Positions 6,276 through 41,153 of a stretch of DNA of 43,934 nt are shown here, piece after piece. The DNA is taken from contig CAIXWQ010000732.1 in assembly GCA_903923175.1 (NCBI GenBank), forward strand, positions 1 through 43,934. Reading direction: 5' to 3'. The notes under the pieces were generated by a model. It was given only the letters and a program-made list of their open reading frames with translations, searched no databases and was not told the DNA's origin. This DNA comes from an uncultured delta proteobacterium. Lineage in GTDB: Bacteria > Myxococcota_A > Polyangia > Polyangiales > JADJMO01. The position numbers were made by a program, and so were the translations under genes. How positions within the stretch are numbered: position 1 is the first letter of the stretch; every line of letters starts with the position of its first letter.

Positions 6276-7763
6276 CTACGACTTCTTCGCCGCGAACACG
6301 GCCTTGACCGTGAAGGTCGCCGAGCCACCATCCGGGGCCGGGAAGGTCATCGAGTAGAACGTGCCTGCGACGCACGTTCCGAGGCTCGAGGGGCTACCGC
6401 CCGAACCGGACGCGCTCGTGACCTTGCCTTCGGCGTTGATGGAGACGGTCACGCTCACCGTGCCGCCCGCGTCGGGATCCGACTGAAGAGCTTTGTTGTA
6501 GCAACCTCGGAAGCGCCACTTGTTCTTCGCGACGACCGCGTCGGCGCCGGGCACGTTCGGGGCGGAGGTGGTCGCCTCGCTCTGCGTGATCGTGGGAACC
6601 GCGGGGCCCGCCACGACCGTCGGCGCAGGACCAGGCGTACCAGGGCCGCCGACCTTCGAGCCGCCCCGCGAGATGTCGGTGCCGCCCGGAAGTGCGCCCG
6701 GTGCACCCGGGCCACCGCCCGACTGCCCTCGAAGCCGAGGTCCGCCCATGGCGTCGACGCTGCTCGTGTCGCTGGCGACCTTGTCGACGTGATCGCCCGC
6801 GGCTGTGTCGCCCGACTTCAGCGTGCGACCGACCGCTGGCGCTTCGCCACCGGGACCGCCGAGCAACTGGAGCGCGAGCGTATCGGCCTGGCTCGACAGC
6901 GCGTCGGCCTTCGCCTCGCTCGCCTTGCCGGCGGCTTCCTTGGCGGCCGCGGCCGCCTCTGCCTTGCTCGGCGCCGGTCCCGTCTTCGCCACGGGCGCGT
7001 TCGCCTTCGGCTTGTCGTCCGTCTTGCCCTTGTCGTCGGCCTTGCCCTTGTCGTCGGCCTTCTCGTCGGGCTTCTTGTCTTCGAGCGGCGGCGGCGCGGG
7101 GTGCTCGCGCGTGCTCTGGATGAGCGAAGCCGTGTCGGCTTCCTCGTCGACGATCGGATCGAACCATTCGCTGTTCACGGCGCCGGCGAAGCCGAAGTGG
7201 AACAGGAACGAGAACGCCGCGATGATCGTGAAGCCCCAGTCGACCTGGGCAGCGAGGCCGCCCTTCACCGCGAGAGGCAGCTGCGGCTTCGGCTGGATCG
7301 GCGGCGGTGCGACGAACTGGAAGAGGAACGTCGTGTCGCCGAGCACGACCTTGCCGCGCGCCTCCTCCGTGAGCTTCAGCTGGCAGAACGCTCCGACCCG
7401 CTTCGCCAGGCCGCTCGCGCGGGCCTGAGCGACGTCCGTCACGCCGGCTGGCAGAGCGACACGACCCGTCATCGGATCGGAGAGGTTGAGTACGTAGTCG
7501 TTGCCGACGAGCTCGAACAACCGCATCGACTCCGGCACGTTCGTGCCCGAAGCCAGGAACATGTTCGTGTGGCTCGAGCCGATCGTGACGTGCGTCCGCT
7601 GCTTGATGACGCGCTCTTCGATGACGCGACCACCCTGCACCTTGCCGATGCGCAGGACCTTGGGCCCCGTCACCTGCGGCATGGCGCGCATCGCCATGGT
7701 CATCTGGCCGGGGCGATTACCTGCACCAGCCTGGGGAGCGCGCGGACCCGTGTTCGTGTTCAT
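6276..7763 (-). CDS. GltG/NfsG-like inner-membrane protein: FHA-like domain, one TM helix, AgmX/PglI TonB-like domain
   Basis: A 495-residue protein. Residues about 35-150 look like an FHA-type beta-sandwich (THVTIGSSHTN, then GNDYVLNLSDPMTGRVAL). One membrane helix lies near 176-197 (WGFTIIAAFSFLFHFGFAG). A Lys/Asp/Ala-rich spacer and a Gly/Pro-rich stretch lead to the C-terminal AgmX/PglI domain (about 400-495: KNKWRFRGCYNKAL, then GTVSVTVSINAEGKV, then CVAGTFYSMTFPAP). GltG and GltJ of Myxococcus gliding and NfsG of sporulation share this N-in single-pass plan and carry energy or motion to the outer membrane. The ATG at 7763 is fixed by GGAGG four nt upstream; the frame extends to a TTG at 7898 that lacks such support. 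It is the last gene of the operon. Confidence 0.82.
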   Translation of the reverse strand: MNTNTGPRAPQAGAGNRPGQMTMAMRAMPQVTGPKVLRIGKVQGGRVIEERVIKQRTHVTIGSSHTNMFLASGTNVPESMRLFELVGNDYVLNLSDPMTGRVALPAGVTDVAQARASGLAKRVGAFCQLKLTEEARGKVVLGDTTFLFQFVAPPPIQPKPQLPLAVKGGLAAQVDWGFTIIAAFSFLFHFGFAGAVNSEWFDPIVDEEADTASLIQSTREHPAPPPLEDKKPDEKADDKGKADDKGKTDDKPKANAPVAKTGPAPSKAEAAAAAKEAAGKASEAKADALSSQADTLALQLLGGPGGEAPAVGRTLKSGDTAAGDHVDKVASDTSSVDAMGGPRLRGQSGGGPGAPGALPGGTDISRGGSKVGGPGTPGPAPTVVAGPAVPTITQSEATTSAPNVPGADAVVAKNKWRFRGCYNKALQSDPDAGGTVSVTVSINAEGKVTSASGSGGSPSSLGTCVAGTFYSMTFPAPDGGSATFTVKAVFAAKKS

Positions 7764-7911
7764 GCGGCCTCCGGGGGGAGCAGCTCCGGAATTCCGGTGA
7801 GACCGCCCCTCAGGCATCGGACCATGCACGCGACGGAAAGTTCCCGCCCACGGACCGAACCTTTCGGCAGGGTACACGGGCGACCGTCGCGGACGCAATG
7901 TACGTGAACGC

Positions 7912-8517
7912 TCATATCTCGGTGACCTCGGGGTAGCGGGCGGCCAGCGGAAGCATCAGCGCGTCGAGCTCCTCCAGGCGATCGCGTCTCAGCTGTCGTG
8001 AGATCCGGTGGCAGGCCGCGCACACGATGCCTCCGAGGACGGCAATCGCCGCCATCGAGAGGCCGCGCTCGACGACGTCCTGGAAGTAGGCGACCGGGCT
8101 CCCCGACACGTCGAGCATCGAGTGACCGAGCCCATCGCGCATCACGAGCGTCGCCGCGAGCAAGCCTCCCGTGGTCGCGAGCGAAGCGGCGACCCGCGGC
8201 GTTCGGGCGTCGTCCATCATCTCGCGCTCGATGTCGGCGACGGCCTCGGCCAACGCGAGCTTGCGCGCGAGGGGGGACTGCTCTGTCTCCTCGGCTTGCA
8301 CGACCGTCGACACCAGCCGCTCGGCGACGCTCCCAGGGGCCGTCTCGCCGAGCGCGCGCGAGAGGCGAGGCAATTCCAGCGACGGATCGGCTTCCAACGC
8401 GGCTGCGAAGGCCGTCGCGTCCACGGCCCCGAGCGTGCGTACGAGCCGCAGCACCGTTCGCATCGCGATCGTGATCGGAACGGAGACGATGGCGAGGCCG
8501 AGAAGGAGGAGCAACAA
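7912..8517 (-). CDS. Three-helix TolQ/ExbB/MotA-like membrane protein
   Basis: About 201 residues. Helix 1 is at the N-terminus (about 1-25). A cytoplasmic charged segment follows (about 30-125). Helix 2 (VAASLATTGGLLAATLV) is preceded by ADIEREMMDDARTPR, and helix 3 (AAIAVLGGIVCAACH) is followed by RISRQLRRDR. This spacing, and the small/Thr/Gly-rich pair of helices, match the layout of TolQ/ExbB/MotA proton-channel subunits such as AglR, which powers Glt gliding. The match is by architecture, not a strict motif. No TolR/ExbD partner gene is in the window. The start is uncertain: TTG at 8517 or 8514 keeps helix 1, whereas the first ATG (8463) would remove it. It sits 26 nt after the 98-residue gene. 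Confidence 0.7.
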   Translation of the reverse strand: MLLLLLGLAIVSVPITIAMRTVLRLVRTLGAVDATAFAAALEADPSLELPRLSRALGETAPGSVAERLVSTVVQAEETEQSPLARKLALAEAVADIEREMMDDARTPRVAASLATTGGLLAATLVMRDGLGHSMLDVSGSPVAYFQDVVERGLSMAAIAVLGGIVCAACHRISRQLRRDRLEELDALMLPLAARYPEVTEI

Positions 8518-8543
8518 GGTGCGCGGAGGCTCTCTCGAGCGAC

Positions 8544-8840
8544 TCAGAAGGGCTCGCTCAGCAGCAGCCCTTCAATCTGTTTGTAGAAGTCCTGACGCAG
8601 CTTCGACAGCTCGATGTCCGGAAGGATCTTGCCGAGGTCGACGACGGCGCTCGGACGCATCGGGCGTGCGGTCACCGTGATGTTGATCTCCGCCGGCGCG
8701 CCCTTCGTCGCCTTCTCCGGCTCCGCGCCCTTCGGGCTCGACGCTGCCGCAGCGGGCTTTTGCTGAGCGTCCGCGCTCGCCGCCGAGCAGATCGCGACGA
8801 TCGAGACGGCAGCCACGAGGAACCGACGGGCGAGTTTCAT
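8544..8840 (-). CDS. Small exported protein in the GltF/NfsF position
   Basis: A 98-residue product with a signal peptide (about residues 1-25, ending ASADA) followed by a Lys/Ala/Pro-rich linker. The C-terminal half is conserved-looking: EINITVTARPMRPSAVVDLG then KLRQDFYKQIEGLL. I recognise no named family. It lies 10 nt downstream of the GltE-like TPR gene and 26 nt upstream of the three-helix protein. In M. xanthus the gene between gltE and gltG is gltF (nfsF in the sporulation cluster), so position suggests an equivalent; sequence homology is not shown. The ATG at 8840 is preceded by GAGAGGG. The mature protein would be periplasmic. Confidence 0.75.
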   Translation of the reverse strand: MKLARRFLVAAVSIVAICSAASADAQQKPAAAASSPKGAEPEKATKGAPAEINITVTARPMRPSAVVDLGKILPDIELSKLRQDFYKQIEGLLLSEPF

Positions 8841-8850
8841 GGGAACCCTC

Positions 8851-10491
8851 TCAGAAGCTTGCTTTGATCTTGGGCGCGCTCGACGAAGGCGCAACCGGAG
8901 CTGCGCTGTTCGACGCGGCAGGCGCCGTCGGCTTGGCAGATGCGCTCGGCGCCGGAGGGGCCGCGCTCGGCTTCGGGGCCACGGACGCGCTCGGGGGCGG
9001 GGGCGGCGTTGCTGCGCTCGGCTTCGGCCCGGCCGACGCAGCGGGAGGAGGAGGCGTCGTCGCCGTCGGCTTCGGCGGAGGCGTCGGGCCGCCCTTCGGT
9101 GTGGTCCCGCCCGCGCCCGCGGCGCCCGCGGCCGCATTCCGGCGGGAGATCTGCGCCTGGCCGAGCAGATCGTCGATGTCGCTCGGCCAACTCGCGCCCT
9201 GTGAGGTGCCCTTCGCGGACTTGTACTGGTTGAAGAAGTCGATCGCCTTGTCGAGGCGAGGGACGTCCTGGAGCTTGTCGACGCCGGGGACCAAGAAGTA
9301 CAGCAAGCCGAGGTCGTAATCGGCGAGCGCCTTGACGAGCGGCGAGGCGCCGGGGGCCGCGAGCACCCAGTTGTACGAAGCCTTCGCCAGCTCCCAGCCG
9401 AGCTTGTTGTCGGCGAAGCTCGAGAGCGCCTGCAGCCGATAGGCCTCGCCCAGCGCGAGTCGCGCCTCGGCGTTGCCCGGTGCGTACTTGACCGCGGTCT
9501 CCAGCGGACCGCGCGCGCCTTCGGCGTCGTTCGACTCGATGCGCAGCAGCCCGAGCTGCAGGTGCGCCTCGACCAGATCGGGCCTCGTCCGCGCGGCCTT
9601 CTCGAACCAGACCGCCGCGCCGGTGCGCTCGCCCGCCCGCTGGAAGATGATCGCGCGCAGCAGCTGCGCCTCGGCGTTGCCTGGCGCGCGCGGCGGGTTC
9701 TTCTTCGCCGGTTCGTTCTTGGCGCGCTCCTCGTCCGTCTGCTGACCATCGAGAATCGAGGACAACACGTACTGAGCCAGCGCGACGCGCCCCGCGCGGA
9801 AGTGATCGCGCGCGATGAGCACCATCGCCGGCTCGTACTTCCCTTCGAGCGTCAGCGCGTTCTGCGCCAGGCTCTGCGCCGTGCTGCTGTCGCCCTTGAG
9901 CGACTTGATCTCTGCCAGCGCCGTCATGATCCCGAACGCCTTCGGGAACTTCTTGTCCTGCTCGTCGAGGAACGCCTCGGCTTCGGCGCGCGAGCCCGAG
10001 CGATAGAGGAGGTAGCCGTAGGCAGTGACGGCCGCCTCGTAATTCGGGTTGAGCTTGTAGGCCTCTCGGTAGTGCTCGAGCGCGTCGCTCGTCTTGCCGA
10101 GATGCTCGAGCACGAGCGCGATTCCGTAGTGGGCGACGTACCCCTTGGCGTCGATCGACAGCGCGCTCTGGAACGACTGCTGCGCTGCTACCAGCTCGCC
10201 CTTGAGGTACTGCTGGTAGCCCTGCTCGTACGCGCTCTTGAAGTCGGCGCTCGAGCCTGCCGCGGTCTCGGTCGGCGTCGGCGGCGGCGGCGGCGCTTCC
10301 GCCGTCACCGTGTCGGTGCGCGCACGATCGGCTTCGGGGACCTCGGCGGTCGCGGAAGCGCTCGCTTCAGGCTTCACCTCTCTGGCTGGCGTGCGCGGAC
10401 CGCACGCCGGGCTGAAGGCCAAGGGCAAGCTGACGGCCGCGGTCCACGCCATCGCCGTGATGAACGTGCGGTTCGGTCTCGTCGTCGACAT
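8851..10491 (-). CDS. GltE/AglT/NfsE-like TPR protein
   Basis: A 546-residue exported protein. The N-terminal signal ends near SPACG, a possible though atypical lipobox (Cys30). After an acidic and Pro-rich linker, TPR units run from about residue 85 to 420, for example YEQGYQQYLKGELVAAQQSF and HYREAYKLNPNYEAAV. The C-terminal 110 residues are low-complexity Ala/Pro/Ser/Thr/Lys, with repeats such as PKPSAA, and the protein ends KIKASF. GltE (AglT) of Myxococcus is a TPR protein of similar size and operon position, directly after gltD. Here the start is 3 nt after the GltD-like stop, which implies translational coupling. The likely role is a periplasmic or outer-membrane-anchored scaffold of the trans-envelope complex. 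Confidence 0.83.
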   Translation of the reverse strand: MSTTRPNRTFITAMAWTAAVSLPLAFSPACGPRTPAREVKPEASASATAEVPEADRARTDTVTAEAPPPPPTPTETAAGSSADFKSAYEQGYQQYLKGELVAAQQSFQSALSIDAKGYVAHYGIALVLEHLGKTSDALEHYREAYKLNPNYEAAVTAYGYLLYRSGSRAEAEAFLDEQDKKFPKAFGIMTALAEIKSLKGDSSTAQSLAQNALTLEGKYEPAMVLIARDHFRAGRVALAQYVLSSILDGQQTDEERAKNEPAKKNPPRAPGNAEAQLLRAIIFQRAGERTGAAVWFEKAARTRPDLVEAHLQLGLLRIESNDAEGARGPLETAVKYAPGNAEARLALGEAYRLQALSSFADNKLGWELAKASYNWVLAAPGASPLVKALADYDLGLLYFLVPGVDKLQDVPRLDKAIDFFNQYKSAKGTSQGASWPSDIDDLLGQAQISRRNAAAGAAGAGGTTPKGGPTPPPKPTATTPPPPAASAGPKPSAATPPPPPSASVAPKPSAAPPAPSASAKPTAPAASNSAAPVAPSSSAPKIKASF

Positions 10492-10494
10492 CGC

Positions 10495-13400
10495 TCAGCC
10501 CCCCTTCGCGGCGGGCGCCGTGGGGCCCGGCGGAATGGGCGTGTCGACGGTCGGCGGCGGCGAGGAGGCGGCACCCGGGCGCGCTTGCTTGAACATCTGA
10601 TCGACGTAGTTGAAGGGCTTCGGGTAGGCGCTCTGCCACTCCTTGAGCTCCGGACCCGCGTTCGGCGTCAGGTACTCCCGGAGCTTCACGTCGGTGAGCA
10701 GGTCGGTGTAGTACGCGAGCCGCTGGACGGCCTTCACCACTCTGTCGTCCTTCACGCCGAATTCCTTGCCGCGCAAGTAGCCGGCCGCGTAGCGCTGCGT
10801 GAGGCGCAGCTCCATGTCGTGCACGTACCCCTCGCGTGCGGCGGTCCACTTCTTCGATTGGACCTTGCGCGCCTCGTCCATCTTGTCGAGGGTGGTCTGG
10901 CATCGGGCCTTCGCCGCCTCGCTCGAGTTGTCGTCCTCGAGGACCTTGCGGCACCCCTCCTCGACGGTGGCGATCTTCTTCTCCGTGACGGGGTCGATCG
11001 CCTGGATCTTCCCCTTGACCAGCGCCGTGCGGTGCTGGTCGTAGAGCGTGCCTTCGCGCGCGAGGATCACGGGGAGATAGCGCCGCGACTGATAGAGCGC
11101 GCGGATGCGCTCGAGCTCGACGAAGAGCTTCTCGCGCTTGTCGATGTCCTTATCCATCTTCTTGATCACGTCGTCGGCCGAGCCGTCGTAGCTCAGTCGC
11201 GGCGCCTGACCGGTCGGCGTGTCCCACTCCTTCTCGATCTGCTCGTTGACGAAGAAGTAGTCTGCCTCGGCGCCGAAGTCGGCCAGCTGCGTGCCGTCGG
11301 TCCCCGAGCTGCCGTCGGCCTTCTTGGTGGCGTCGTGCTGCGCCTTGAAGGTCGCGATGGTCTTCTTGTACCAGTCGCGGAAGGCCTGATCGCCCGCGGC
11401 CTTGCGGATGAACGCGACCTGCCAGGCGGCCTCGATCGCGTACGCGCGTGCGCCGGTGTTGTTCTCGTACTTGCGGTGGAAGCCTTCGAGCGCCGTGGTC
11501 GCGCGCGTGCGCTGGGTGCCGTCGCTCTGGGCCTGCTTCCACTGGTTCCACTCGAACTCCGCGATGACCCAGTCCATCTCGACGATCTCGGCAGGGCCGG
11601 GCTTCAGCGAGAGGTAGCGGGTGTACGCGTCGAGCATCTCCTTGCGGTTGCCGAGGTTCGCCTGGAGCACGATGGCGTTTGCGGCGTTGTCGCGACGGTC
11701 CCCCTCGGGGATCAGCGTGCGGCCCGCCATCTCGTCGTAGTGCTTGGCGGCCTTCTCGTAGTCGAACGCCTGTACGTACGTGCGGCCGAGCTCGGCGAGC
11801 GCTTCGTTCGTGTACTTGTTCCGGCGCTCGAACTCTTCCGGATCTTTCTTCTGCGGCTTGCCGTCGATCGTCCCGCCGTCGCGGTATGCGATCAGATCGG
11901 CTTCCTTGCCGTAGTTCTTCAGGAAGCTCTTATAGACCTCGGCGGCCTTCTGGTAGTCGTTGATCTGCTTGTAGCAGTCGGCCGACAGGATCGCGCCGCG
12001 CGGAGCCGACGGGCTCTTGGGGGCTCGGTTGAGCGCCAGCGAGTACTTCGCAGCGGCGAGCTCGAACTTCTCCTTGCGGAGCTTCGGGTCCGTCTCCTTC
12101 TTCGCCGCCTCGTAGGCCTCGTCGGCCTGCGAGTAGAGCGCGCTGATCTCCGCCGGATCGGCGATGTCCTTCTCTTGCTGCTTCTGCTCGGTCGTGATGG
12201 CGCACGACTTCTTCTTCGCCTCGTCGACGAGCACGAGGACGCGCTTCGCGTCGCCCTGCTTCTTCGCCATCATGACGAGCGTGTACCAAGCCTTGAAGCC
12301 TTCGTCGTCCTTGCCGCAGTGGGTGGCGCGGAGCTTCTCGTAGCGCTCGGTCGCCTCCTCGAAGCGGCCGTAGCGATACAGGACGTTGGCGTTCTGCTCT
12401 TCGTAGGCGTCGGATCGATTGCCCTGATCGAGCGCCTTGGGCACGCGGGCGATGTACTCCTCGCGCTCGCGCATCGCGCGGACGACCGCGTCGGGAACCT
12501 CGCGGATCCAGAGCCGCTCTTCCTGGCGGCTCTCGATGTCGTCCTGCGAGCGGCACGCGTCGCGCGGCTCCGTCGTCGGACCGAGCACCTTCTCGTTGCC
12601 GGATCCCGTCTGGCAGCCCGACTTCATGTAGAGGTCGAACTGCTCCTGCTCGAGCTGTCCGACGACGTCGACCGCGTTGGCCGCGGCGTAGAAGAGGTAC
12701 TTGTCGTCGAGGTTCGAGTCGCGGACCTCGACCGACGCCGCGCGTGCCGACTCGACGGACTTGGGATCGAGGGGCTTGCCCAGGAGCCGGTCGACCATCA
12801 CGAGGTTCACGCGCGCATCCGAGATGAAGTACTTCGAGTCGTACGCGTCCGAGGCGTCGGGATCGACGCCGAGGTACGTCTCCCACCCCTTGGCGGCGAG
12901 CTCGTATTCGTCACGCGACTTCTGCAGCGAGTTGAGGACCTTGAGATGTCGCTCGGGCGACAGCTGCTCGATCGCATCGCGCTCCAGCGGCATGCGTGGA
13001 TCGACGCCGGCCGCGGCCTTCGCCTCGTTGAAGTAGTTACGCCCGTTCTGCGTGTGCTGCCCCGCGGCGTTCTTCGCCCCCTCGTTCATGAGCGCTTCGG
13101 CGGCGCGGATGGCGTCCGGGTTGTTCTTGTTGCACTCGGTCCAGGGCGTCTTGCCGACGTAGTCGACGAGCTTGGTGCGCGCGTTGAGCGCCTTGGACTC
13201 GTATTCCCGCTTCTTGGACTGATCGAGCGTCTTACGGGCCTGCTGCTCGTACAGCTTCGCGATGCTGTCCTGGAACTTCGGCGCCTCTGGATCGCACGGC
13301 CACTTCTTGATGATCAGCTCGTAGGCCTCGATGGCGTCGAGCATGACCTCGTCGCTCTCGAACTCCGACGCGAGCGCCTTGTACACGCGGGGCGTCCAGA

Positions 13401-15102
13401 CCTTGCCCTGCGGGACGATCTCTTCCTTCTGCACGCGGTCGAGCGCGATTCGCAGCTTCCCCTCGAGCTCGTCGCCCTGGGCCACGTCGAAGACGTCCTC
13501 GCGCTGGACGTAGGGCTCGTTCGAGCCGGGGCCGTCCATGTCGAGGTAGGTGAGCGACGACGCTATGTAGTCGTAGGCGTCCTGGCGCATCTGGGCGCGA
13601 ACGTCGGCGCCGATCTCCGAGTCGCCGGCCTTCTCGTGCTGGTCGAACCAGTCGAGAAGCTGCAGGAACTCCTTGCGCGAGGTCGTGTAGCGCTGCTGCT
13701 TGAAGTACGTCCAGGCGAGCTTGTAGATGGTGTAGACCTGGACGGTCTGCGAGCTCGTGTCGAGCGCGTGTCGGTATGCGCTCTCCGCGCGGTTGTACTG
13801 GTACGGCGAGGCGCCGAAGTACCCCGTGGCCTCCGAGTTCTCGTCGCCGTGGCCGTAGTGGTACTCGCCCATGCGCCACCACGTCTGCGCGATGTACGAC
13901 TGCTCTTCGCCGGTCTCGGTGACCTTGCCGCCGAGGGCCGTGCAATCGGTCGGATACGGCTCCTTGTAGCTGTCCTCGTCGTCCGAGAGGTCGACGGCGC
14001 CCTTCTTCCCCGCCGCGGCCGGGCGCTTCGCCTTCGCCTTGAGCAGGTCGGGGTCGTGGCGGAGCCGCCAGCCGAAGGGCGGATCGCCGTTCCCCCAGTA
14101 CTTGTAGTCGTGGTCCTGCGGGAGCGGCGGGATGCCGTCCTTCCACTTCTTGCGGTCCTTCTCCTCGGCCGCGTCTCTGGGCGCGGGGAGGGGATACGCG
14201 TAGTGGTTCGAGCAGACCATCGCGCGCCAGACCCACTGCGATTCCTCCGCGCGGCCGGTGTCGGCGAGCAGCGAGCCGAGGAAGAAGTGGACCGCGCCCA
14301 GGTTGCGGTAGCCCGGGAACTTGACGATGACGTCGCGGTAGAGGCGCTCCGCCGGCTCCATCGCGGCGAGGAGCTTGGTCGGGTAGTCGTCCGAGGTCGG
14401 ATCGAGAGTTTCCTCGGCCTCCTCCTGGAACAACGCCGCCAACCGGAACATGGCGTCCGGCGTGTGGTCGGGGTCGTCCGGGTACTTCCCGATGAAGGCC
14501 TTCAGGCGCTTGATCGTGTCCTGCCGCGCCTTGACGATCTCGTCTTCGTCGCGTCGGATGTTCTCCGACATCGGGCCCAGCCGCGCCTTCTTCTTGGCCT
14601 CGAAGCGCTGGCGGATGATCTGGTTGAGCGCCTGCGCGTATCCCGCGGCGCCCTTGTGATAGCGGTCGGCCTCCTTGGTGAGGTCGCGCAACGCGCCGTC
14701 TTGCTCGGGCGAAACGGGCGGAAGGCTCGACGTCTTCGCGGCGACGGCGGGCGCGGCCGAGGCGGTCGGGGCCGCGCTCGCGCTGCCCATCACCCGTGCC
14801 GGCCACGGCTTGGTGGCGACGACGACGGGCAAACCCGGCCCCTTCGTGTTCAGGACCGTCACCGCGCCGGGCGGCAGGGCCGAGCCGAACGTCGGCGGCG
14901 GGATGTCCGCGTACGTCGTGGCGGGCGCCGCTGGCTTGCCGGCCGACGCCGAGCCCTTTCCCGCCGGCTTCGGCGGGGGCCGTTGCTGCGAGGAGGCAGC
15001 GGTTGCGAGGAAGAGACCTGCCGCCACGAGACCGATCGCGCTCGCGGCACGCAGGACCTTCCGACCGAAGAGATCGGACTCTGGGAAAGCTCGCTTCAGC
15101 AC
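10495..15102 (-). CDS. GltD/AgnA/NfsD-like giant TPR protein
   Basis: A 1535-residue exported protein. The signal peptide is hydrophobic from about residue 19 to 38 and is probably cut at ASS before QQRPPP. The remainder is helical with many TPR-type units, such as WWRMGEYHYGHGDENSEATG and YKLAWTYFKQQRYTTSRKEF. Many charged helices lie between the units. GltD (AgnA) and NfsD of Myxococcus are the long periplasmic TPR proteins that precede GltE and NfsE, as here. The start is GTG at 15102, seven nt after the upstream stop, with GAGG five nt before it; no ATG is nearby. The region carries a fully open antisense frame, which is a composition artefact. Confidence 0.83.
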   Translation of the reverse strand: MLKRAFPESDLFGRKVLRAASAIGLVAAGLFLATAASSQQRPPPKPAGKGSASAGKPAAPATTYADIPPPTFGSALPPGAVTVLNTKGPGLPVVVATKPWPARVMGSASAAPTASAAPAVAAKTSSLPPVSPEQDGALRDLTKEADRYHKGAAGYAQALNQIIRQRFEAKKKARLGPMSENIRRDEDEIVKARQDTIKRLKAFIGKYPDDPDHTPDAMFRLAALFQEEAEETLDPTSDDYPTKLLAAMEPAERLYRDVIVKFPGYRNLGAVHFFLGSLLADTGRAEESQWVWRAMVCSNHYAYPLPAPRDAAEEKDRKKWKDGIPPLPQDHDYKYWGNGDPPFGWRLRHDPDLLKAKAKRPAAAGKKGAVDLSDDEDSYKEPYPTDCTALGGKVTETGEEQSYIAQTWWRMGEYHYGHGDENSEATGYFGASPYQYNRAESAYRHALDTSSQTVQVYTIYKLAWTYFKQQRYTTSRKEFLQLLDWFDQHEKAGDSEIGADVRAQMRQDAYDYIASSLTYLDMDGPGSNEPYVQREDVFDVAQGDELEGKLRIALDRVQKEEIVPQGKVWTPRVYKALASEFESDEVMLDAIEAYELIIKKWPCDPEAPKFQDSIAKLYEQQARKTLDQSKKREYESKALNARTKLVDYVGKTPWTECNKNNPDAIRAAEALMNEGAKNAAGQHTQNGRNYFNEAKAAAGVDPRMPLERDAIEQLSPERHLKVLNSLQKSRDEYELAAKGWETYLGVDPDASDAYDSKYFISDARVNLVMVDRLLGKPLDPKSVESARAASVEVRDSNLDDKYLFYAAANAVDVVGQLEQEQFDLYMKSGCQTGSGNEKVLGPTTEPRDACRSQDDIESRQEERLWIREVPDAVVRAMREREEYIARVPKALDQGNRSDAYEEQNANVLYRYGRFEEATERYEKLRATHCGKDDEGFKAWYTLVMMAKKQGDAKRVLVLVDEAKKKSCAITTEQKQQEKDIADPAEISALYSQADEAYEAAKKETDPKLRKEKFELAAAKYSLALNRAPKSPSAPRGAILSADCYKQINDYQKAAEVYKSFLKNYGKEADLIAYRDGGTIDGKPQKKDPEEFERRNKYTNEALAELGRTYVQAFDYEKAAKHYDEMAGRTLIPEGDRRDNAANAIVLQANLGNRKEMLDAYTRYLSLKPGPAEIVEMDWVIAEFEWNQWKQAQSDGTQRTRATTALEGFHRKYENNTGARAYAIEAAWQVAFIRKAAGDQAFRDWYKKTIATFKAQHDATKKADGSSGTDGTQLADFGAEADYFFVNEQIEKEWDTPTGQAPRLSYDGSADDVIKKMDKDIDKREKLFVELERIRALYQSRRYLPVILAREGTLYDQHRTALVKGKIQAIDPVTEKKIATVEEGCRKVLEDDNSSEAAKARCQTTLDKMDEARKVQSKKWTAAREGYVHDMELRLTQRYAAGYLRGKEFGVKDDRVVKAVQRLAYYTDLLTDVKLREYLTPNAGPELKEWQSAYPKPFNYVDQMFKQARPGAASSPPPTVDTPIPPGPTAPAAKGG

Positions 15103-15109
15103 TGCGACC

Positions 15110-17509
15110 TCACTCGATGCCGATGGAGCCGTCGCTCTTGATCTGCTTCATCTCGTCATCCAGCAGGCGTTCCTGCTCGATGTACTCGCGCTTGCGGTCG
15201 CGCACGATGGCCTTGCGCACCTCGCGCTCCTTCCAGGCTTGGTCGACGATGCCGACTTCGGCCCGCATCATGTAGTCGCCGAGCTTCTTGCGCACGGCCT
15301 CGAGATTCTGCTTCGCGACCTTGCCGACGACGTCGCGCGCCTCGGAGTCGAAGGCCGCGAGCTCCTTCTTGTAGCCGTCGAGCGCAGCCTGCTCGGCGTC
15401 GAGCGTCTTCTGCAGCTTGTCGACCGTCTCGAAGACCTGCGTGTCGAGCGCCGACTTCTGCTTCTCGAGCTTCTCTTCGACCTGTCGCGCGCGCGCGAGC
15501 GTCGGCTCCGCGTTGGTCGCGTAGGTCGCCGCCGTCCCCCCGAGGTTCTGGCGCACCAAGCGCACTTCCTTCTCGAGGATGTCGCGGTAGTTCTTGCGGC
15601 GTTCCTCGTCGGTCTTCGAGCGGTCGTCGCCGGTGCCGGACTGGACGCGGCCGCGCTCCACGAGGTCGCGGAGATCCTGGGCTTCCTTCTTGAAGGCGAC
15701 GATGTCCTTCTGGCCCTCGTCCAGCTGCTGCTCGTACTCGCGCACCTTCGCGGGCTCGAGCGGCTTGCCCTGATCGTTCTGCCGCGTCTTCACGTACTTG
15801 CGGAGCGCATTGATCTGCGCCTGCAGCATGTCGATCTCGATGTTGCGCTGCTGGAGCTGCTGCGAGATCGCGCGCCACTGGCCGTTCGCCTCGTCTTCGC
15901 GCTTCTGGAACGCGTCGGCGTCCTTCGGCAGCAGCGCGATTTCCCCCTCGAGGCGCTTGCGCGCCTCGCGCGCTTGCTCGAGCTCGGGCCACTTGGAGAC
16001 GTCCGGCGGCTCGACGTCGTCGAGCCCCTGCGCGACGTCCGAACGCGAGCTCGCCACCCGGTTGAGCAGGCCGATCAGCCCTTCGTAGGCCGCCTTGGCC
16101 TCGGGGAAGGCGCGGATCTGATCCGAGCCCTTCACCACGGCCTGCAGCTTGTCGAGCATCGCCTGCGACTGCTGGAGGAGCTCCTTCGTCTGCTGCACGC
16201 TCTCGACGACGTTGAACGCGAGCGCGCCGTCCTGCCCTTGCTTCGCCCACTTGATGACGAGCGGCGGGAGCGAGTCGGGGCCGTCCAACGCGTCCATCGT
16301 CGGTGCCGTCAGGCGGTCGTAGTAGTCGCCTGGCGTGCGATCGACCTTGAGGTAGTCGTCGATGCGCTTGTGCAGCGGATCGATCTCGTTGCGGACGTTC
16401 TCGTAGGACGCGAGCGCCTTCTTGAACTCGGCCTTCCGAAGCTGGATGTCGGCCTTGAGCAGCTCGCCTTCGATCGCGTGCGGACTGTCCGGGCTGGATA
16501 GCTCGAGGAGGTCGAGCGCGCGGGTCGCCTTCTCCTGGTCCTCCAGGCGGACGTACACCCAGGCAATCTCGTAGAGCATCGTGTCGAAGTGCTTCGACGT
16601 GCGGTCGACGTGCTCGTACGCCAGCACCGACTGATCGAGCTGGTCCATCTCGTAGAACAGCCGACCGATCGCGATCCAGGAGAGGTCGACGACCTCCTTG
16701 TGGTCATCGGTGTCGCCGGGGAGATCGGTGACCTTTTTGAACGCGTCGATCGCAGGGTTGAACTTCTTCGGCTGCGCCTGCTTGATCGCGATGACGCCCA
16801 GCAGGAAGCGCGCCTGGTGCTGGAAGCCGCCGTCGGGGCCGACCTGGCCGAGCGTCGCCTTCGACGCGTCGAGGTCGCCCTTGAAAAACAGCATCTTCCC
16901 CTTCGCGTAGAGGACGACGGAGTCGACGTCCCCTGGCGCGAGCTTGCCGATTCGGCCGAGCACGTCCTCGGACACCTTCGGCTCGGTGGGGTCTTCGACG
17001 CGGACGACGATGTCGACGAGGCGCGCGACGGCACGCGAGGCGTACGGCTTGAACTCCGGCAGGCTCGCCCCGTCGGCGATCTGGCGGAACTTCGTTCGAG
17101 CGGAGAGGTAGTCGTGGATCGCGTAGAAGGCCTCGCCGTTGCGGAAGACCGCCTCGGCGTAGGCGCGCCGGTTCGTGGAGTACTTCTCCTCGACCTGAGA
17201 GAAGACGAGGATCGCGCGCTGGTAGTCTCGAAGGCGCACCAGCAGCTCGCCGTCGGCCAGCATCTGCTCGGCCGAGCGGAACTCGATGCCGGACTTCCCC
17301 TTCAGGCTCAGCACGCCTGGCAGGTCGCGCTCGATGCCATCGAGCTCAGCGGAGGCCGTTCCGAGGGCGTCCTTCGACGAGAGCTTCGCGGCCGCGACAC
17401 CCTCGTGCGACAGCAGGGGGACGGCGCCAGCGGCCAGAGCGAGCGCCAGCAGCAGTGCGCGCGCTGGGGCCGCGGCTCGCCTCCGCCGGAGAGCGGGACG
17501 GGGGCTCAT
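15110..17509 (-). CDS. GltC/NfsC-like TPR and coiled-coil exported protein
   Basis: A 799-residue protein with an Arg-rich, then Ala/Leu-rich signal peptide (about 1-35). Residues about 60-400 hold TPR-like helical pairs (ELLVRLRDYQRAILVFSQVE; WIAIGRLFYEMDQLDQSVLA). Residues about 420-790 are long charged coiled coils (KREDEANGQWRAISQQLQQR; EEKLEKQKSALDTQ). In M. xanthus, GltC and NfsC are TPR proteins of the same machines, which supports the placement just before the GltD-like gene. The ATG at 17509 is one nt after the stop of the preceding gene. A GTG at 17536 is also in frame but would overlap that gene and spoil the signal peptide. The likely location is the periplasm. Confidence 0.8.
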   Translation of the reverse strand: MSPRPALRRRRAAAPARALLLALALAAGAVPLLSHEGVAAAKLSSKDALGTASAELDGIERDLPGVLSLKGKSGIEFRSAEQMLADGELLVRLRDYQRAILVFSQVEEKYSTNRRAYAEAVFRNGEAFYAIHDYLSARTKFRQIADGASLPEFKPYASRAVARLVDIVVRVEDPTEPKVSEDVLGRIGKLAPGDVDSVVLYAKGKMLFFKGDLDASKATLGQVGPDGGFQHQARFLLGVIAIKQAQPKKFNPAIDAFKKVTDLPGDTDDHKEVVDLSWIAIGRLFYEMDQLDQSVLAYEHVDRTSKHFDTMLYEIAWVYVRLEDQEKATRALDLLELSSPDSPHAIEGELLKADIQLRKAEFKKALASYENVRNEIDPLHKRIDDYLKVDRTPGDYYDRLTAPTMDALDGPDSLPPLVIKWAKQGQDGALAFNVVESVQQTKELLQQSQAMLDKLQAVVKGSDQIRAFPEAKAAYEGLIGLLNRVASSRSDVAQGLDDVEPPDVSKWPELEQAREARKRLEGEIALLPKDADAFQKREDEANGQWRAISQQLQQRNIEIDMLQAQINALRKYVKTRQNDQGKPLEPAKVREYEQQLDEGQKDIVAFKKEAQDLRDLVERGRVQSGTGDDRSKTDEERRKNYRDILEKEVRLVRQNLGGTAATYATNAEPTLARARQVEEKLEKQKSALDTQVFETVDKLQKTLDAEQAALDGYKKELAAFDSEARDVVGKVAKQNLEAVRKKLGDYMMRAEVGIVDQAWKEREVRKAIVRDRKREYIEQERLLDDEMKQIKSDGSIGIE

Positions 17510-17510
17510 G

Positions 17511-18338
17511 TCACTTCTTCCCACCGGATCCGACACCGACCTGGACCTTCTCGACGAAGCGCACGGCCGGGCGCTCCTCGAGCGGCGTGGTCGGACCGCC
17601 CTGCTCGTAGCCCACCACCCGGAGCTGGAGCGTCTTGCCCTCGATAGCCGTGAAGGAACGGCTCGAGCGGACCTCGAACTTGTAGCCCTTCAGGTACGAG
17701 AAGATTCCGTAGCCGTTCCCCTGGTACTCGAGGAGCACCTGGACGGTGTGGTCGCCCGGCTGCACGAGCTCGGCGTAGAGCGGGATCTCCTTCTGGTCGC
17801 CGATCTGGTCGCGCTCGTCGGTCTTCGTGGCGAGCGGGGCGCCGTCGTACAGCGCCACGATGCGGCGAAGTCGGAACGCGCTCGACATGTCGTTCTCGAA
17901 GACGATCTCGGCGCGCGCCGCGGCGGTGACACCGGAGATGATCGACTCCGAGAGCAACGCGAGCCGCGTGTGGCTCCGGCGGATGCGCTCTTTGAGGTCG
18001 TTGATGCGCTGCTCGAGATCGCGCAGCCGCACGGTGTAGCTCTGCGAGTCGAGCGTGCCGCCTGTGGTGCCCGCCGGGACGGAGGGGGTCGCGCTCGCGA
18101 TCGGCGCGGCGGCGGTGGTGGAAGCAGCCGGCGCGGCAGAGCTCGCCGCGGGGGCCGCGGTGGTCGCCGCGGGCGCTGCCTTGGTCCCCTGCGCGGACGC
18201 CACCAACGGCGCCAGCAACATCGAACCCAACACGACGGGCATCGCCCAGCTGGCGAGGCGGAAGCCAAGGCGCTCGCGCGTGTAGCCATTCGGCTCGGAC
18301 TGACGCGAAACGTTCCCAGTCGACGAAGTGCGTGACAT
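17511..18338 (-). CDS. Exported coiled-coil/beta-sandwich protein, first gene of the Glt/Nfs-like operon
   Basis: A 275-residue protein. A long N-region precedes a signal peptide (ASWAMPVVLGSMLLAPLVASAQ), then a low-complexity Ala/Thr/Pro/Ser linker to about residue 95. A short coiled coil follows (RLRDLEQRINDLKERIRRSH). The rest looks like a beta-sandwich of PEGA or carbohydrate-binding type (VQPGDHTVQVLLEYQGNG, then GKTLQLRVVGYE), ending in GSGGKK. I do not recognise a named family. It leads the operon, and the next gene starts one nt after its stop, so coupled expression with the TPR proteins is expected. An upstream start at 18695 would run through the promoter region and is unlikely. A periplasmic structural role is inferred from context. 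Confidence 0.78.
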   Translation of the reverse strand: MSRTSSTGNVSRQSEPNGYTRERLGFRLASWAMPVVLGSMLLAPLVASAQGTKAAPAATTAAPAASSAAPAASTTAAAPIASATPSVPAGTTGGTLDSQSYTVRLRDLEQRINDLKERIRRSHTRLALLSESIISGVTAAARAEIVFENDMSSAFRLRRIVALYDGAPLATKTDERDQIGDQKEIPLYAELVQPGDHTVQVLLEYQGNGYGIFSYLKGYKFEVRSSRSFTAIEGKTLQLRVVGYEQGGPTTPLEERPAVRFVEKVQVGVGSGGKK

Positions 18339-18745
18339 TCCGTGGGCCCCCTTTGCCGCGGCTCGCTTCGATGGCGTCGCGGGCGAGGTGTGGTTCGAGT
18401 GTAGCCCTACCATACCGAGGTGTGCCGCGTCGCGCGACGAAACAGACACGGAGGCGGTCGGTTGCCGCCGCCTCATCGGTCGGGGTATAGCTCGACGCTG
18501 AACGAGCGGCAACGCTGCGATCGATCGCAAGCACGCGACCCGATTGCCTTTTCCTGGGCTCACGTGCGATCGATCAAATCGGAGGGGCTCGTGCGCTCGC
18601 CCGAGACGGTCATCCAGACACGGCGGTGGACTCGCAAACGGACTCCTGGAGGCAATCCGGGTAGATCCTCGCCGGGTCTCGCGCGTCTGGTTCAACGTGG
18701 ACGAGAGACCCCCGGCCGGCGCCCTTGGTTCCGCGGAGCACCCGC
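18339..18745. promoter_or_regulatory. Divergent regulatory region between the Glt/Nfs-like operon and the ECF sigma gene
   Basis: No gene is seen in these 407 bp. The region must hold the promoters of both directions. Its most distinct signal is the element TGCGATCGATC, present at 18516-18526 (as part of the 14-bp palindrome TGCGATCGATCGCA, 18516-18529) and again at 18565-18575, 49 bp apart in the same orientation. A weak TACACT -10-like box can be picked out on the minus strand, but no convincing -35 accompanies it. The elements could be operators for a regulator of either side. Confidence 0.5.
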
Positions 18746-19360
18746 GTGACCGACCCCCTCGCGCGCGAGCCCGACGAGTCGCTGCTCGCCCGCTATCGGC
18801 GTGGCGACACCAGCGTCTTCAAAGAGCTCGTCCGGCGCCATCAGCGGGGCCTCTTCAACTTCGCCCTGCGTCAGGTGCACGCGCCGTCGACCGCCGAGGA
18901 CATCGTCCAGGAGGTATTCGTTCGCGTCGTACAGAACGTCGAGAGCTTCAAGGAAGAGGCGCGCTTCGCGACCTGGGCCTACACGATCGCCAGGAATCTC
19001 TGCATCGATCATCTGCGAAAGCGCGTGCACCGGCGCCACGCTTCGCTCGACGCGCCGGCGGGGCCCGACAGCAGCGACGCGCCGCTGGTCGAGAGGGTCG
19101 CGGGCGGCACGGACGAGGCGGCCGACCGAGCGGCCATCGGGCGGCAGCTCGGCACCCACATCGCCGCCGCCGTGGAGAGGCTCCCGGACGATCAGCGTGA
19201 GGTCTTCCTGCTGCGCCATCTGGGCGAGCTCGCCTTCAAGGAGATCGCCGAGATCGTGGGCACGAACGAGAACACGGTGAAATCTCGCATGCGCTACGCG
19301 CTCGAGCGGCTGCAAGCGGCGCTCGCCGAGTACGAGGACTACGCCAGGGTGACGCGGTAG
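18746..19360 (+). CDS. ECF-family RNA polymerase sigma factor
   Basis: A 204-residue sigma70-family factor with region 2 at about residues 20-90 (AEDIVQEVFVRVVQN, then FATWAYTIARNLCIDHLRKR) and region 4 at about 140-195 (LPDDQREVFLLRHLGELAFK, then ENTVKSRMRYALERL). There is no region 3, so this is the extracytoplasmic-function type. The start is GTG at 18746, chosen because GGAG lies 7 nt upstream (18735-18738); a TTG at 18725 is in frame but unsupported. The next gene encodes a zinc-type anti-sigma factor. The pair faces the Glt/Nfs-like operon, so that operon or the downstream lipoprotein are candidate targets; this is inference. Confidence 0.93.
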   Translation: MTDPLAREPDESLLARYRRGDTSVFKELVRRHQRGLFNFALRQVHAPSTAEDIVQEVFVRVVQNVESFKEEARFATWAYTIARNLCIDHLRKRVHRRHASLDAPAGPDSSDAPLVERVAGGTDEAADRAAIGRQLGTHIAAAVERLPDDQREVFLLRHLGELAFKEIAEIVGTNENTVKSRMRYALERLQAALAEYEDYARVTR

Positions 19361-19409: not shown

Positions 19410-20555
19410 GTGGACTGCGAGAAGCTCGATGAGATGGCGATGGAGCTCGTCTACGACGAGCTCGACGCGCGCGCTGCGGAGGAGGCCCGCCTCCACCTCC
19501 TCGGTTGCACGCGCTGCGCCGCCGTCGTCGAGCGCCTCCGTGGCGGTCTCCGCGCCGCCGAGGCCCTGCCGCTCGAGGCGCCTTCGAGCCTGCTGGAGGC
19601 ACGAATTCTGGCCGCGTCGTCCGCGGCGCGGCCGCCCGTGCCGTGGCACCGTCGCGCCTCGCGCGCGATGGCGGTCGCCGGCGCCTGGGCGATGCGTCCG
19701 CAGGTCGCCATGGCGGCGGTGGTCGTGCTCATGATCGGCACCTCTGCGGTCCTGCTTCGGCGCTCGTCGCCTACGGCCGCACAGCGGACGAAGGTGACCG
19801 ACGAAGGGACGCCGATCGCGACGCTCGAGCAGCCGGCCGAGGGGGCTCCTGCGGTCGCCGGTGCGCGTCCGGGCAGCCCCGCGAAGGGCGACTCGCTCGG
19901 CGGGCTCGGCGACGGCAAGAAGAAGCAGAAGGCCGAGGCCGAGGCAGACGAGCGTCGCGGCGAGGCGGCGCCGAGCGACCAAGGGGCCGCGCTCGAGGAG
20001 AAGGTGGCGGCCCGCTCGCTGGCGAAGGGGGCGACGGACTCGGTCGCGGGGGACGGACCGACCGCGGCGCCTCCGAGTGCCGCCGCATCCGCGAACGGCG
20101 CGGGCGCGAGCGCCGGCAGCTACGACGACGCGATGACCGCGTACAAGGCGAGCCGGTGGGAGGACGCACAGCGCGGGTTCGACGGCTCGGCGAGCGCGGG
20201 GGTGAAGCCGTCGTCGTCGCTCCTGTACGCCGCGCGCAGCCTCCGAGCCCAAGGGAAGTGCGCCGACGCCCTCGTGCGCTTCCGCAAGGTCGTCGACGGC
20301 TATCCCGGGACGGTCGACGCCGCGAACGCCGCCCTGGAAGGGGGCGAGTGCGCGCGCACCAATGGCGACACCGCCTCCGCGCGCTCACTCTTCGAGAAGG
20401 CGAAGGAGAACGCCGCCACGCGCGCCCGCGCGGAGTCGGCCCTCGCCTCGCTCGACGCGCCCAAGGCCAAGGTCGCGGGGCCGACGGCGACGACGCTCGC
20501 GCCTGCCAAGCCGGCGGAGGCGAAGCCGTCGAACTCGACGACGATCGGCCAGTAG
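19410..20555 (+). CDS. Zinc-type anti-sigma factor with periplasmic TPR-like tail
   Basis: A 381-residue single-pass membrane protein. The cytoplasmic N-terminus carries the anti-sigma zinc motif H29-x3-C33-x2-C36 (HLLGCTRC). One membrane helix is at about 98-118. A Lys/Glu/Ala-rich spacer follows, then a C-terminal TPR or YbgF-like helical repeat region (about 230-350: AYKASRWEDAQRGFDG; CADALVRFRKVVDGYPG). It ends in a Lys/Ala/Pro tail. The start is GTG at 19410 with the strong site GGAAGGAGAGG upstream. It lies 49 bp after the sigma gene, the usual sigma then anti-sigma order. The TPR-like periplasmic tail is unusual for the class and could sense the TPR-rich envelope machine encoded opposite. 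Confidence 0.88.
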   Translation: MDCEKLDEMAMELVYDELDARAAEEARLHLLGCTRCAAVVERLRGGLRAAEALPLEAPSSLLEARILAASSAARPPVPWHRRASRAMAVAGAWAMRPQVAMAAVVVLMIGTSAVLLRRSSPTAAQRTKVTDEGTPIATLEQPAEGAPAVAGARPGSPAKGDSLGGLGDGKKKQKAEAEADERRGEAAPSDQGAALEEKVAARSLAKGATDSVAGDGPTAAPPSAAASANGAGASAGSYDDAMTAYKASRWEDAQRGFDGSASAGVKPSSSLLYAARSLRAQGKCADALVRFRKVVDGYPGTVDAANAALEGGECARTNGDTASARSLFEKAKENAATRARAESALASLDAPKAKVAGPTATTLAPAKPAEAKPSNSTTIGQ

Positions 20556-26313: not shown

Positions 26314-26388
26314 GATTGCTCTCCAGGGACGTCGTTCCACCCCCCGACCGAGTCGGTCTGGGAAAGGCGGCGGAAGTCAGGGCGCGGC

Positions 26389-26416
26389 AACATAGCGGAA
26401 CCGCCGGGATCGTCAA
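26389..26416 (-). promoter_or_regulatory. Sigma70-type promoter of rpsT
   Basis: Minus strand: -35 TTGACG (26411-26416), spacer 16 nt, -10 TATGTT (26389-26394). Transcription would start near 26382 and run leftward into rpsT. Confidence 0.65.
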
Positions 26417-26564
26417 GGGCACTGTACGTCCGCTCCCCCCGGCGCTCCCGTCGCGGAGCGCGCCGCCCCGGAGGAACGACGCCGCCGTGGGGCCGACCGC
26501 GGCCACGCCGACGTGCTCCATGATTCGCGACGCTCGAACGTCCTACGCTGAGGACCAACCGCCC

Positions 26565-36243: not shown

Positions 36244-37371
36244 CTACTGCACCTTCGCGCACACGCCGGCGCTGCCGGCGTCCGACGTCTTCGCGCAGTG
36301 GTAGCCCGCGGGGCAGCGCTTCGCGTCGCCACCGCAGGCCCGCGAGCAGTAGCCGCTCGCACCGACGCGCACGCAGAGCCCGCTCGCGCAGCTCGCGCCG
36401 GACGCGCACGCATCGCCCTGGTCTCCCGCCGGATCGCTCGCCCCGGCGTCCGCCGTCGGCGTGTCGGGCGCGGACGGTGCGCTCGGCGCGGTCGGGTTCG
36501 AGTGTGCGGCGATCGTCTCCGCGACGCGCCCTGCGCGCGTGTAGATGTTGCCGGCGCTCGCGCCTTCGCACGGCTGCGGGCCGCGCGACACGACGCCGAC
36601 GATCTCGCCGCTGGTCTCGTCGAGCGCGGGGCCGCCGCTGTCGCCGCTGCAGGTGGCCTCGCCGACGAGGAACTCCGCCGCGTCGACCTCGAGGATCGGC
36701 ACGCCGGTGCGGAAGCGCTTGGCGCCGGCGGTGCCGCCCGTGCCGGTCAGGCCGAAGCCGACCGCGGTGATCGTGTGACCGAGCGCGGGCGCCGCCTTCG
36801 CCACGCGCAGCGGCGTCAGATCGTGGATCGGCCGATCGAGGCGCAGCAGCGCGATGTCGTTCGCGCAGAGGACCTTGCCGCTCGGCGCGAGGATCTCCGC
36901 CCCCTTGGCGATCGGCTGGGCCGTGCGCGCGTCGTCGCCGCGCAGCACGAGGATGCTACCGGGCGGCCGATCGCCGGTGATCTGCGCCGCGCTGCTCGGG
37001 CACTGCACGCTCTCGCTCCGCAGGTACGAGACGCAGTGGCGCGCGGTGAGCACGAGATCGGGCGCGACCAGCGCGCCGGTGCAGAGCGCGGTCCCCTGCG
37101 CGTCCTGGGCGAGGAGCGCGAGCACGGACGGGTGACGCCCCTTGTCGGCGGCGCCGTGGACGATCGCCTGGTCGACGGCGACCGGCGGCCCATCGGCGGG
37201 CTCGTCGACCGTCTGGGGGCCGAGCGAGTCGGCGTCGTGCGAGGCGCTGCACGCGGTGGCGAGCGGGAAGATGCCGGCGACGCCGAGCTTGAGGAACGCG
37301 CGCGCGGCGCGCGAGGCGACCCGCGCGCCGATGGGGCGCGTGACGAGGGAGACGGTACGTGCGTGGGACAT
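36244..37371 (-). CDS. Trypsin-like (S1) serine protease lipoprotein with Cys-rich tail
   Basis: A 375-residue protein. A twin-Arg-like basic start leads to a hydrophobic segment and lipobox LATAC (Cys41). The S1 domain has all three catalytic residues: His112 in LTARHC, Asp172 in NDIALLRL and Ser245 in GDSGGP. A linker of Pro/Ala/Asp (about 292-318) joins a 55-residue tail with nine cysteines (SCASGLC, YCSRACGG, RCPAGYHC), an EGF-like or disulfide-rich surface module seen in Myxococcota lipoproteins. ATG 37371 is fixed by AGGAGGT (37375-37381), the best ribosome site in the window. The ARHC variant replaces the usual AAHC. Substrate unknown; probably extracytoplasmic or surface acting. Confidence 0.9.
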   Translation of the reverse strand: MSHARTVSLVTRPIGARVASRAARAFLKLGVAGIFPLATACSASHDADSLGPQTVDEPADGPPVAVDQAIVHGAADKGRHPSVLALLAQDAQGTALCTGALVAPDLVLTARHCVSYLRSESVQCPSSAAQITGDRPPGSILVLRGDDARTAQPIAKGAEILAPSGKVLCANDIALLRLDRPIHDLTPLRVAKAAPALGHTITAVGFGLTGTGGTAGAKRFRTGVPILEVDAAEFLVGEATCSGDSGGPALDETSGEIVGVVSRGPQPCEGASAGNIYTRAGRVAETIAAHSNPTAPSAPSAPDTPTADAGASDPAGDQGDACASGASCASGLCVRVGASGYCSRACGGDAKRCPAGYHCAKTSDAGSAGVCAKVQ

Positions 37372-37448
37372 GGGACCTCCTGCCGCGCGACAGGGCGCGG
37401 CGAGGAGGGCTTCAGCGCGCGGCGTGCCGCCGCCGGGGGCGCGTGAAT

Positions 37449-37466
37449 GCCCTCGAATTCGAGGGC
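37449..37466. repeat. 18-bp perfect palindrome upstream of the protease gene
   Basis: GCCCTCGAATTCGAGGGC reads the same on both strands. It lies 78 bp upstream of the protease ATG, in the 139-bp gap between the CYTH gene and the protease gene, both leftward. No U-run follows, so an operator is more likely than a terminator. Confidence 0.5.
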
Positions 37467-37510
37467 TCCGTGGGCTCGCGCGGGCGGCGGCGCCGGCGGC
37501 CGCCGGCGGG

Positions 37511-37987
37511 TCAGGCCGAGGGGACGCGCTGCGAGCGGGCGAGGGCGCCGTTGCTGTAGCGGGCATCGTGCGAGACCTCGCCGCCGATCCACGTCGGGAT
37601 CTCGAACGGCTCGTCGATCGCCTCGAGCTCGATCTCGGCGAGCAGGAGCCCGTCGAGCGCGCCGGCGAAGACGTCGACCTCCCAGCGCTTGCCGGCGTGA
37701 TCGAGCTCGTAGCGCGTCTTCTCGAGCTGCGCGTGCGCCATCTCGAGGAGCACCCGTGCGTCGACGACCGGGATCTCGTACTCGAGCTCCGCGCGATCGA
37801 TGAGCCCAGGGCCCTTGATCGTCAGCCACGCGTGCGCGGAGTCGGTGCCGTCGTCGGCGATCCGCACGCGCACCGTGGGGCGCTCGGCGAGGTAGCCCTG
37901 CACGAGCCGACGGCCGCCGAGGAGCGGCGGCAGACGCGCGCGATCGACCAGGAATTTCCGCTCGATCTCGCGTCCACCGCCGGTCAT
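37511..37987 (-). CDS. CYTH-domain triphosphate tunnel protein
   Basis: A 158-residue CYTH (triphosphate tunnel metalloenzyme) protein. The signature ExExK is present as EIERK (Glu7, Glu9, Lys11). The tunnel strands follow in order: TVRVRI, LTIKGPG, ELEYEI, KTRYELD, WEVDVFAG and LAEIELE. Bacterial members of this size hydrolyse tripolyphosphate or nucleoside triphosphates; the substrate cannot be told. The gene starts 10 nt after the secA stop, and its likely ribosome site GAGG overlaps that stop codon, which implies translational coupling with secA. There is no fused CHAD domain. Cytoplasmic. Confidence 0.9.
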   Translation of the reverse strand: MTGGGREIERKFLVDRARLPPLLGGRRLVQGYLAERPTVRVRIADDGTDSAHAWLTIKGPGLIDRAELEYEIPVVDARVLLEMAHAQLEKTRYELDHAGKRWEVDVFAGALDGLLLAEIELEAIDEPFEIPTWIGGEVSHDARYSNGALARSQRVPSA

Positions 37988-37997
37988 CGGGAGAGCC

Positions 37998-41153
<3,156 letters not shown>

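Follow-up and report, generated by a model that had tools for sequence, protein, structure and literature searches.

Contig C732 (CAIXWQ010000732.1), which belongs to the 10.7 Mb genome of an uncultured delta proteobacterium of the Myxococcota and was analysed over its entire length of 43,934 bp (hereafter the window), harbours on its minus strand an operon putatively encoding a trans-envelope machine related to the Glt gliding machinery and the Nfs spore coat system of Myxococcus xanthus. According to the sequence comparisons described below, the operon appears to belong, as a derived member, to a third and separate lineage of Glt/Nfs-type machines that extends across the phylum and is referred to here as A0-type.

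The operon comprises seven closely spaced open reading frames (ORFs) predicted to encode an exported protein of 275 aa (A0, 18338-17511), an exported tetratricopeptide repeat (TPR) protein of 799 aa homologous to GltC/NfsC (C, 17509-15110), a GltD/NfsD homologue of 1535 aa (D, 15102-10495), a GltE/NfsE-like TPR protein of 546 aa (E, 10491-8851), which is a probable lipoprotein judging from its family name, an exported GltF/NfsF homologue of 98 aa (F, 8840-8544), an inner-membrane protein of 201 aa with a TTG start (Q, 8517-7912) and a GltG-like transducer of the TonB/TolA type with 495 aa (G, 7763-6276). The gaps between these genes of 1, 7, 3, 10, 26 and 148 bp are exactly those given in the first-pass annotation of the window. 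All seven ORFs are free of internal stops and their third-position GC content of 0.85-0.93 indicates a coding-like bias. The gene order A0-C-D-E-...-G was found again in over 20 genomes from the taxonomic order of the window, representing about ten family codes, as well as across the phylum, and is not due to chance.

Two further co-directional genes trail G in A0-type clusters throughout the phylum. They are predicted to encode an exported protein of 183 aa kept directly downstream of G (d2, 6039-5488) and an outer-membrane beta-barrel of 452 aa kept downstream of d2 (d1, 5385-4027), the latter with a weak match to the BBP2 family (Pfam PF10082, E = 0.011). By this conservation both belong to the operon, which consists of nine genes. 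The seven genes originally assigned to it were confirmed, but the unit had been drawn too small.

Relationship to the Glt and Nfs machines

Profiles built from orthologous A0-type clusters were compared by means of hhalign with the nfs locus of three Myxococcaceae, whereby the label “nfs” was inferred from the gene order C-D-E-F-G and the second-best GltG score. Match probabilities of 99.6% for C, 100% for D, 98.3% for E and 99.8% for G were obtained, and F matched NfsF with 94.1% compared to at most 2.2% in shuffled controls. On the basis of these profiles C, D, E, F and G can be regarded as homologues of the Glt/Nfs parts at the superfamily level, and the GltF position seems to be filled by a true GltF/NfsF homologue. 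This is consistent with the first-pass annotation, which had described GltC-, GltD-, GltE- and GltG-like products together with a small protein in the GltF position, arranged in the same order as in nfs. The homologues of GltC, GltD, GltE and GltG, which form the core complex, sit together in one operon.

TPR domains alone match many families, and the operon might be regarded as a chance assembly of generic TPR proteins unrelated to Glt/Nfs. This explanation is refuted by the phylum-wide synteny, the GltF homology and the specific matches of G. The latter reached 96 bits against the GltG model NF033760 over model positions 187-636, and its C-terminus scored 52.6 bits against the AgmX/PglI domain NF033768 and thus above the cut-off of 40. 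A sequence search of G against the PDB gave no match. A second full-length G, 59% identical to that of the window, is encoded at the start of contig C301 of the same genome (L018:2-2500), and short G genes standing alone, with no C, D or E in the vicinity, were detected in other families of the phylum (L120-L122, L124, L125, L129).

The suggested membership in the Glt/Nfs set itself could not be upheld. The scores of the window proteins are far below the equivalog cut-offs of the NCBIfam models for GltC (51 bits; cut-off 450), GltE (64 bits; cut-off 225) and GltG (cut-off 650), and C, D and G fall into a clade of their own. In trees of D (47 rows), G (39 rows) and C (45 rows) the A0-bearing clusters are located on one side of a single branch, apart from both Glt and Nfs, with a support of 100, 99 and 100, respectively, in the Shimodaira-Hasegawa-like approximate likelihood ratio test (SH-aLRT); these are quick trees supported by SH-aLRT without bootstrap and containing some long branches, and a long-branch warning was issued for the C tree. 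The A0-type clade presents itself in these trees as distinct from Glt and Nfs. The window lies deep within it, together with four rows of its own order; in the D tree the branch that they share has a length of 1.36 changes per site. If the A0-type is defined by the synteny A0-C-D-E-F-slot-G-d2-d1 plus membership in one clade, the window fits both.

No clear place in the known sets had been seen for the lead protein A0. It consists of a signal peptide, an Ala/Pro linker, a single long helix (98-136) and a transthyretin-like beta sandwich, and was found in 137 of the 189 sampled Myxococcota genomes, M. xanthus included, which makes it a conserved hallmark of the A0-type clade. Its matches in Pfam and NCBIfam (all E > 0.006) and the best PDB sequence match (FlgM, E = 0.4) were uninformative. 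The profiles of A0, d1 and d2 did not match any ORF of the three nfs loci by hhalign; for this reason an identity of A0 with GltB, which likewise has 275 aa, or with GltA was dropped. Searches with iterated hidden Markov models revealed 41 homologues of d2 and 30 of d1, M. xanthus included, all of them located within an A0-type cluster or beside its G; the glt and nfs loci that were searched contained no homologue. Tandem A0 genes precede C at two loci (L084:14457-16241 and L174:8466-10579).

The operon thus shares with Nfs (nfsA-H; PMC3858216) the homologous C-D-E-F-G in the same order within one operon and without a complete motor in that operon. It differs from Nfs in having A0, Q, d1 and d2, in the lack of any match to NfsA, NfsB or NfsH, and in its separate position in the C, D and G trees. 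Similarly, homologues of C, D, E, F and G and a TonB-like output protein are common to the window and the Glt machinery (gltA-K plus AglRQS; PMC3169522). However, no GltA, GltB, GltH, GltI, GltJ or GltK was found in the cluster, and the short G of the window lacks the stretch corresponding to positions 1-186 of the GltG model, within which GltG has a forkhead-associated (FHA) domain.

A scan of named genomes, in which 80 loci were kept, extended the distribution to M. xanthus AM003, M. llanfairpwll..., Pyxidicoccus, Archangium, Hyalangium and Anaeromyxobacter. Nearly all of these loci show the order A0-C-D-E-F-...-G where the contig is long enough. None of the genomes of the sampled set scored above the GltG cut-off, M. 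xanthus being reached via the named scan. One record named Candidatus Hydrogenedens, that is another phylum, contains an A0-type cluster with motor genes (L220), which may reflect transfer, misnaming or contamination.

A degenerate motor subunit between F and G

The three-helix protein Q, for which the first-pass annotation had found no counterpart, is encoded at the position that we term the motor slot. Its predicted structure (predicted local distance difference test score, pLDDT, of 91) was compared with the PDB using Foldseek. The best 41 matches were all ExbB/TolQ proteins (5zfp, 9ddm and others) with TM-scores of up to 0.67 and probabilities near 1.00, yet with E-values of 0.005 and above. 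The model therewith points to an ExbB/TolQ fold. Furthermore, the profile of the Q family matched diverged Q proteins of other families (96.3%, 1.5e-9), which in turn matched AglR-type proteins (96.9%, 1.4e-10). Taken together with the position of the gene, Q appears to be a degenerate AglR relic; the possibility that it is an unrelated three-helix membrane protein was rejected due to the fold and the gene position. It has to be weighed against the AglR assignment that the direct profile match between Q and AglR was weak (8.6%, E = 0.004), so that the link depends on the intermediate Q proteins of other families, together with predicted fold and gene position.

Compared to the ExbB/TolQ/MotA family (PF01618), Q resembles its members in predicted fold, position and weak profile matches. 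It differs from them in a Pfam score of 15.0 bits, under the cut-off of 22.9, and in the loss of the pore threonines and of the proline in transmembrane helix (TM) 3. The motifs Gly-Thr in TM2 and Thr-Ala...Pro in TM3, whose residues correspond to Thr148, Thr181 and Pro190 of ExbB (PMC12215075), are common to nearly all of the 12 AglR-type rows (one row has NNTA) and are lost in the rows of Q and its relatives (Q/Qx); Q of the window aligns Ala, Met and Ile at these sites, in an alignment that is uncertain at this divergence. Moreover, no ExbD/TolR gene is present next to Q in the operon, with merely 148 bp remaining between Q and G. Despite this degeneration Q is under purifying selection, with a dN (nonsynonymous) of 0.167, a dS (synonymous) of 0.618 and a dN/dS of 0.27 in comparison to a congener, close to the values of E and F. 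It is thus not a pseudogene.

The content of the slot varies within the A0-type clade, the motor set being complete, a relic or missing in different lineages. At two loci (L126, L127) Pfam confirmed one MotA_ExbB gene plus two ExbD genes between F and G. An AglR-type gene (R) plus ExbD occupies the slot at ten more loci (L149, L153, L159, L161, L176, L188, L201, L213, L217, L220), although several of these sets are cut at the locus edge and L176 represents the same contig region as L126. Within the order of the window the slot holds only Q or diverged relatives of Q, and it is empty in Myxococcus, Archangium, Anaeromyxobacter and at L123, L072 and L226. In the D tree the presence and absence of RQS requires at least four changes. 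Since the outer branches of the clade carry RQS and core complexes of GltC/D/E/G elsewhere have AglRQS in the cluster (PMC3169522), motor loss is the economical reading. In the ancestor, the operon itself would have encoded an AglRQS-type proton motor between F and G; in the lineage of the window both ExbD genes would have been lost, while the ExbB gene would have decayed to Q, keeping the fold but not the ion path. Outgroup A0-type clusters hold the core complex including AglRQS (PMC3169522) plus A0 and F, whereas in the window AglQ and AglS are missing and AglR is represented in degenerate form only.

These results also bear on the proposal of the first-pass annotation that the operon encodes an ancestral or alternative Glt/Nfs machine. 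The single operon in the nfs-like order C-D-E-F-G and the homology of the parts speak for it. Taking into account the long branch of the window deep in a separate derived clade whose outer members keep the motor, the loss of that motor, the lack of nfs counterparts for A0, d1 and d2 and the scores far under the equivalog cut-offs, this origin seems very improbable.

It is also conceivable that Q still works as a motor subunit, together with an ExbD/TolR-type partner recruited from an unlinked locus and with other residues conducting the ions. The well-predicted fold, the purifying selection and the presence of ExbD genes elsewhere in the genome would be compatible with such a role. However, the Q/Qx rows have kept neither of the two pore threonines nor the proline of TM3, the ExbD genes elsewhere adjoin their own canonical ExbB gene and the slot is empty in sister lineages. 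An active Q motor is hence considered unlikely.

Energisation of the A0-type machine

The machine is probably either driven by a motor encoded elsewhere in the genome or has turned passive. We favour the former and presume, with a probability of roughly 0.6, that it is driven in trans, because G keeps a Ser-X3-His motif, the genome contains two AglRQS-type sets and the paralogous Nfs of M. xanthus is powered in this manner, by AglRQS acting via NfsG (PMC3858216). The motif (SFLFH) is located in the transmembrane helix of G and is kept in G of the window family, of family f3, of most motor-less Myxococcaceae A0-type clusters and of L126. In TonB and TolA the corresponding residues touch TM1 of ExbB/TolQ, and the His is essential (PMC12215075, PMC12905483). 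Both complete R-ExbD-ExbD sets of the genome are encoded on contig C1307 (L024, 3869-6147 on the minus and 6705-8857 on the plus strand), where they are arranged divergently, back to back; a Glt-type C-D-E-G cluster with a giant TPR protein is present on C1307 as well.

One of these motors might act on G via the transmembrane helix of the latter, similar to AglRQS and NfsG in M. xanthus, while Q may still hold G as a non-conducting docking or clutch subunit. Through its periplasmic linker and its AgmX/TonB-like tail, G would transmit the force to a lattice formed in the periplasm by C, D, E, F, A0 and d2, which could relay it to the outer-membrane barrel d1 and thereby move or organise a surface cargo. 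A surface polymer is the default guess for this cargo, as in Glt and Nfs. More tentatively, Q could be a repurposed, non-conducting ExbB-fold platform serving as a passive inner-membrane clutch for the TonB-like transducer, which would let one trans-envelope chassis switch between being coupled to shared AglRQS motors and being uncoupled from them. If true, this would represent a motor-degenerate kind of Ton/Tol/Glt-type machine.

Two observations weigh against a drive in trans. The His of the motif is gone in the sister lineages f5 and f9 (G of L070, L071, L073, L085, L086 and L088), which fits a passive machine there. Furthermore, GltG and NfsG of Myxococcus lack Ser-X3-His and are motor-driven nevertheless, so that the motif is neither necessary nor sufficient. 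Energisation may have been lost altogether. Q would then form an ExbB-like scaffold through which no ions pass, and G together with the TPR lattice would be a static connector between inner and outer membrane. The operon without ExbD, the lost pore threonine and proline in the Q/Qx rows, the empty slot in several lineages and the loss of the His in f5/f9 would agree with such a tether. Considering, however, that the G proteins of the window and of most Myxococcaceae A0-type clusters without a motor retain Ser-X3-His, that complete AglRQS-type sets are present in the genome and that a drive in trans is established for the paralogue Nfs (PMC3858216), a passive tether appears rather doubtful, and we prefer the drive in trans. 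The f5/f9 loss occurred despite the motif being kept in deeper and sister lineages.

The M. xanthus counterpart and neighbouring genes

The first-pass annotation had placed the corresponding parts of M. xanthus in two glt clusters or the nfs cluster. An A0-type cluster is also present there. In strain AM003 it is split over two contigs (A0-C-D-E at L214 and F-G-d2 at L246); M. llanfairpwll... has it in one piece (L190/L272). M. xanthus possesses four clusters with a D or G gene, namely glt, nfs, the A0-type and one more in which the genes run G-C-D. Luciano et al. (2011) listed four gltD homologues, gltD, nfsD, MXAN_1922 (G4) and MXAN_1327 (G5) (PMC3169522). As two of the four are glt and nfs, the A0-type cluster of M. 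xanthus is, by elimination, G4 or G5. Its motor slot is empty, in contrast to the relic Q in the window.

The G4 and G5 clusters are uncharacterised, and polar mutants of both move normally (PMC3169522), which indicates that gliding is not the role of the A0-type cluster in M. xanthus. The machine is real and well conserved, and was already known as an unexplained M. xanthus paralogue. New are its definition as a phylum-wide third lineage, the additional parts A0, d1 and d2 and the degenerate motor subunit. With Glt and Nfs, two outputs of the AglRQS motor have been characterised, to which the A0-type would add a third lineage, and the M. xanthus orthologue makes the question of how one motor serves several envelope machines testable in that organism.

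Divergently from A0, a gene encoding an extracytoplasmic function (ECF) sigma factor (18725-19360, plus strand) is kept upstream of the cluster within the order and probably sets the expression of the operon. It is followed by a gene on the same strand (19410-20555) for a probable sigma factor partner with an N-terminus that is anti-sigma-like by inspection and a TPR C-terminus; its position suggests that the product probably has an anti-sigma role. Elsewhere in the window, a TPR protein of 1051 aa with a Peptidase_MA_2 domain is encoded at 26316-29471 on the plus strand, and on the minus strand (36244-41153) the gene for SecA (37998-41153) adjoins that for a trypsin-like protease (36244-37566).

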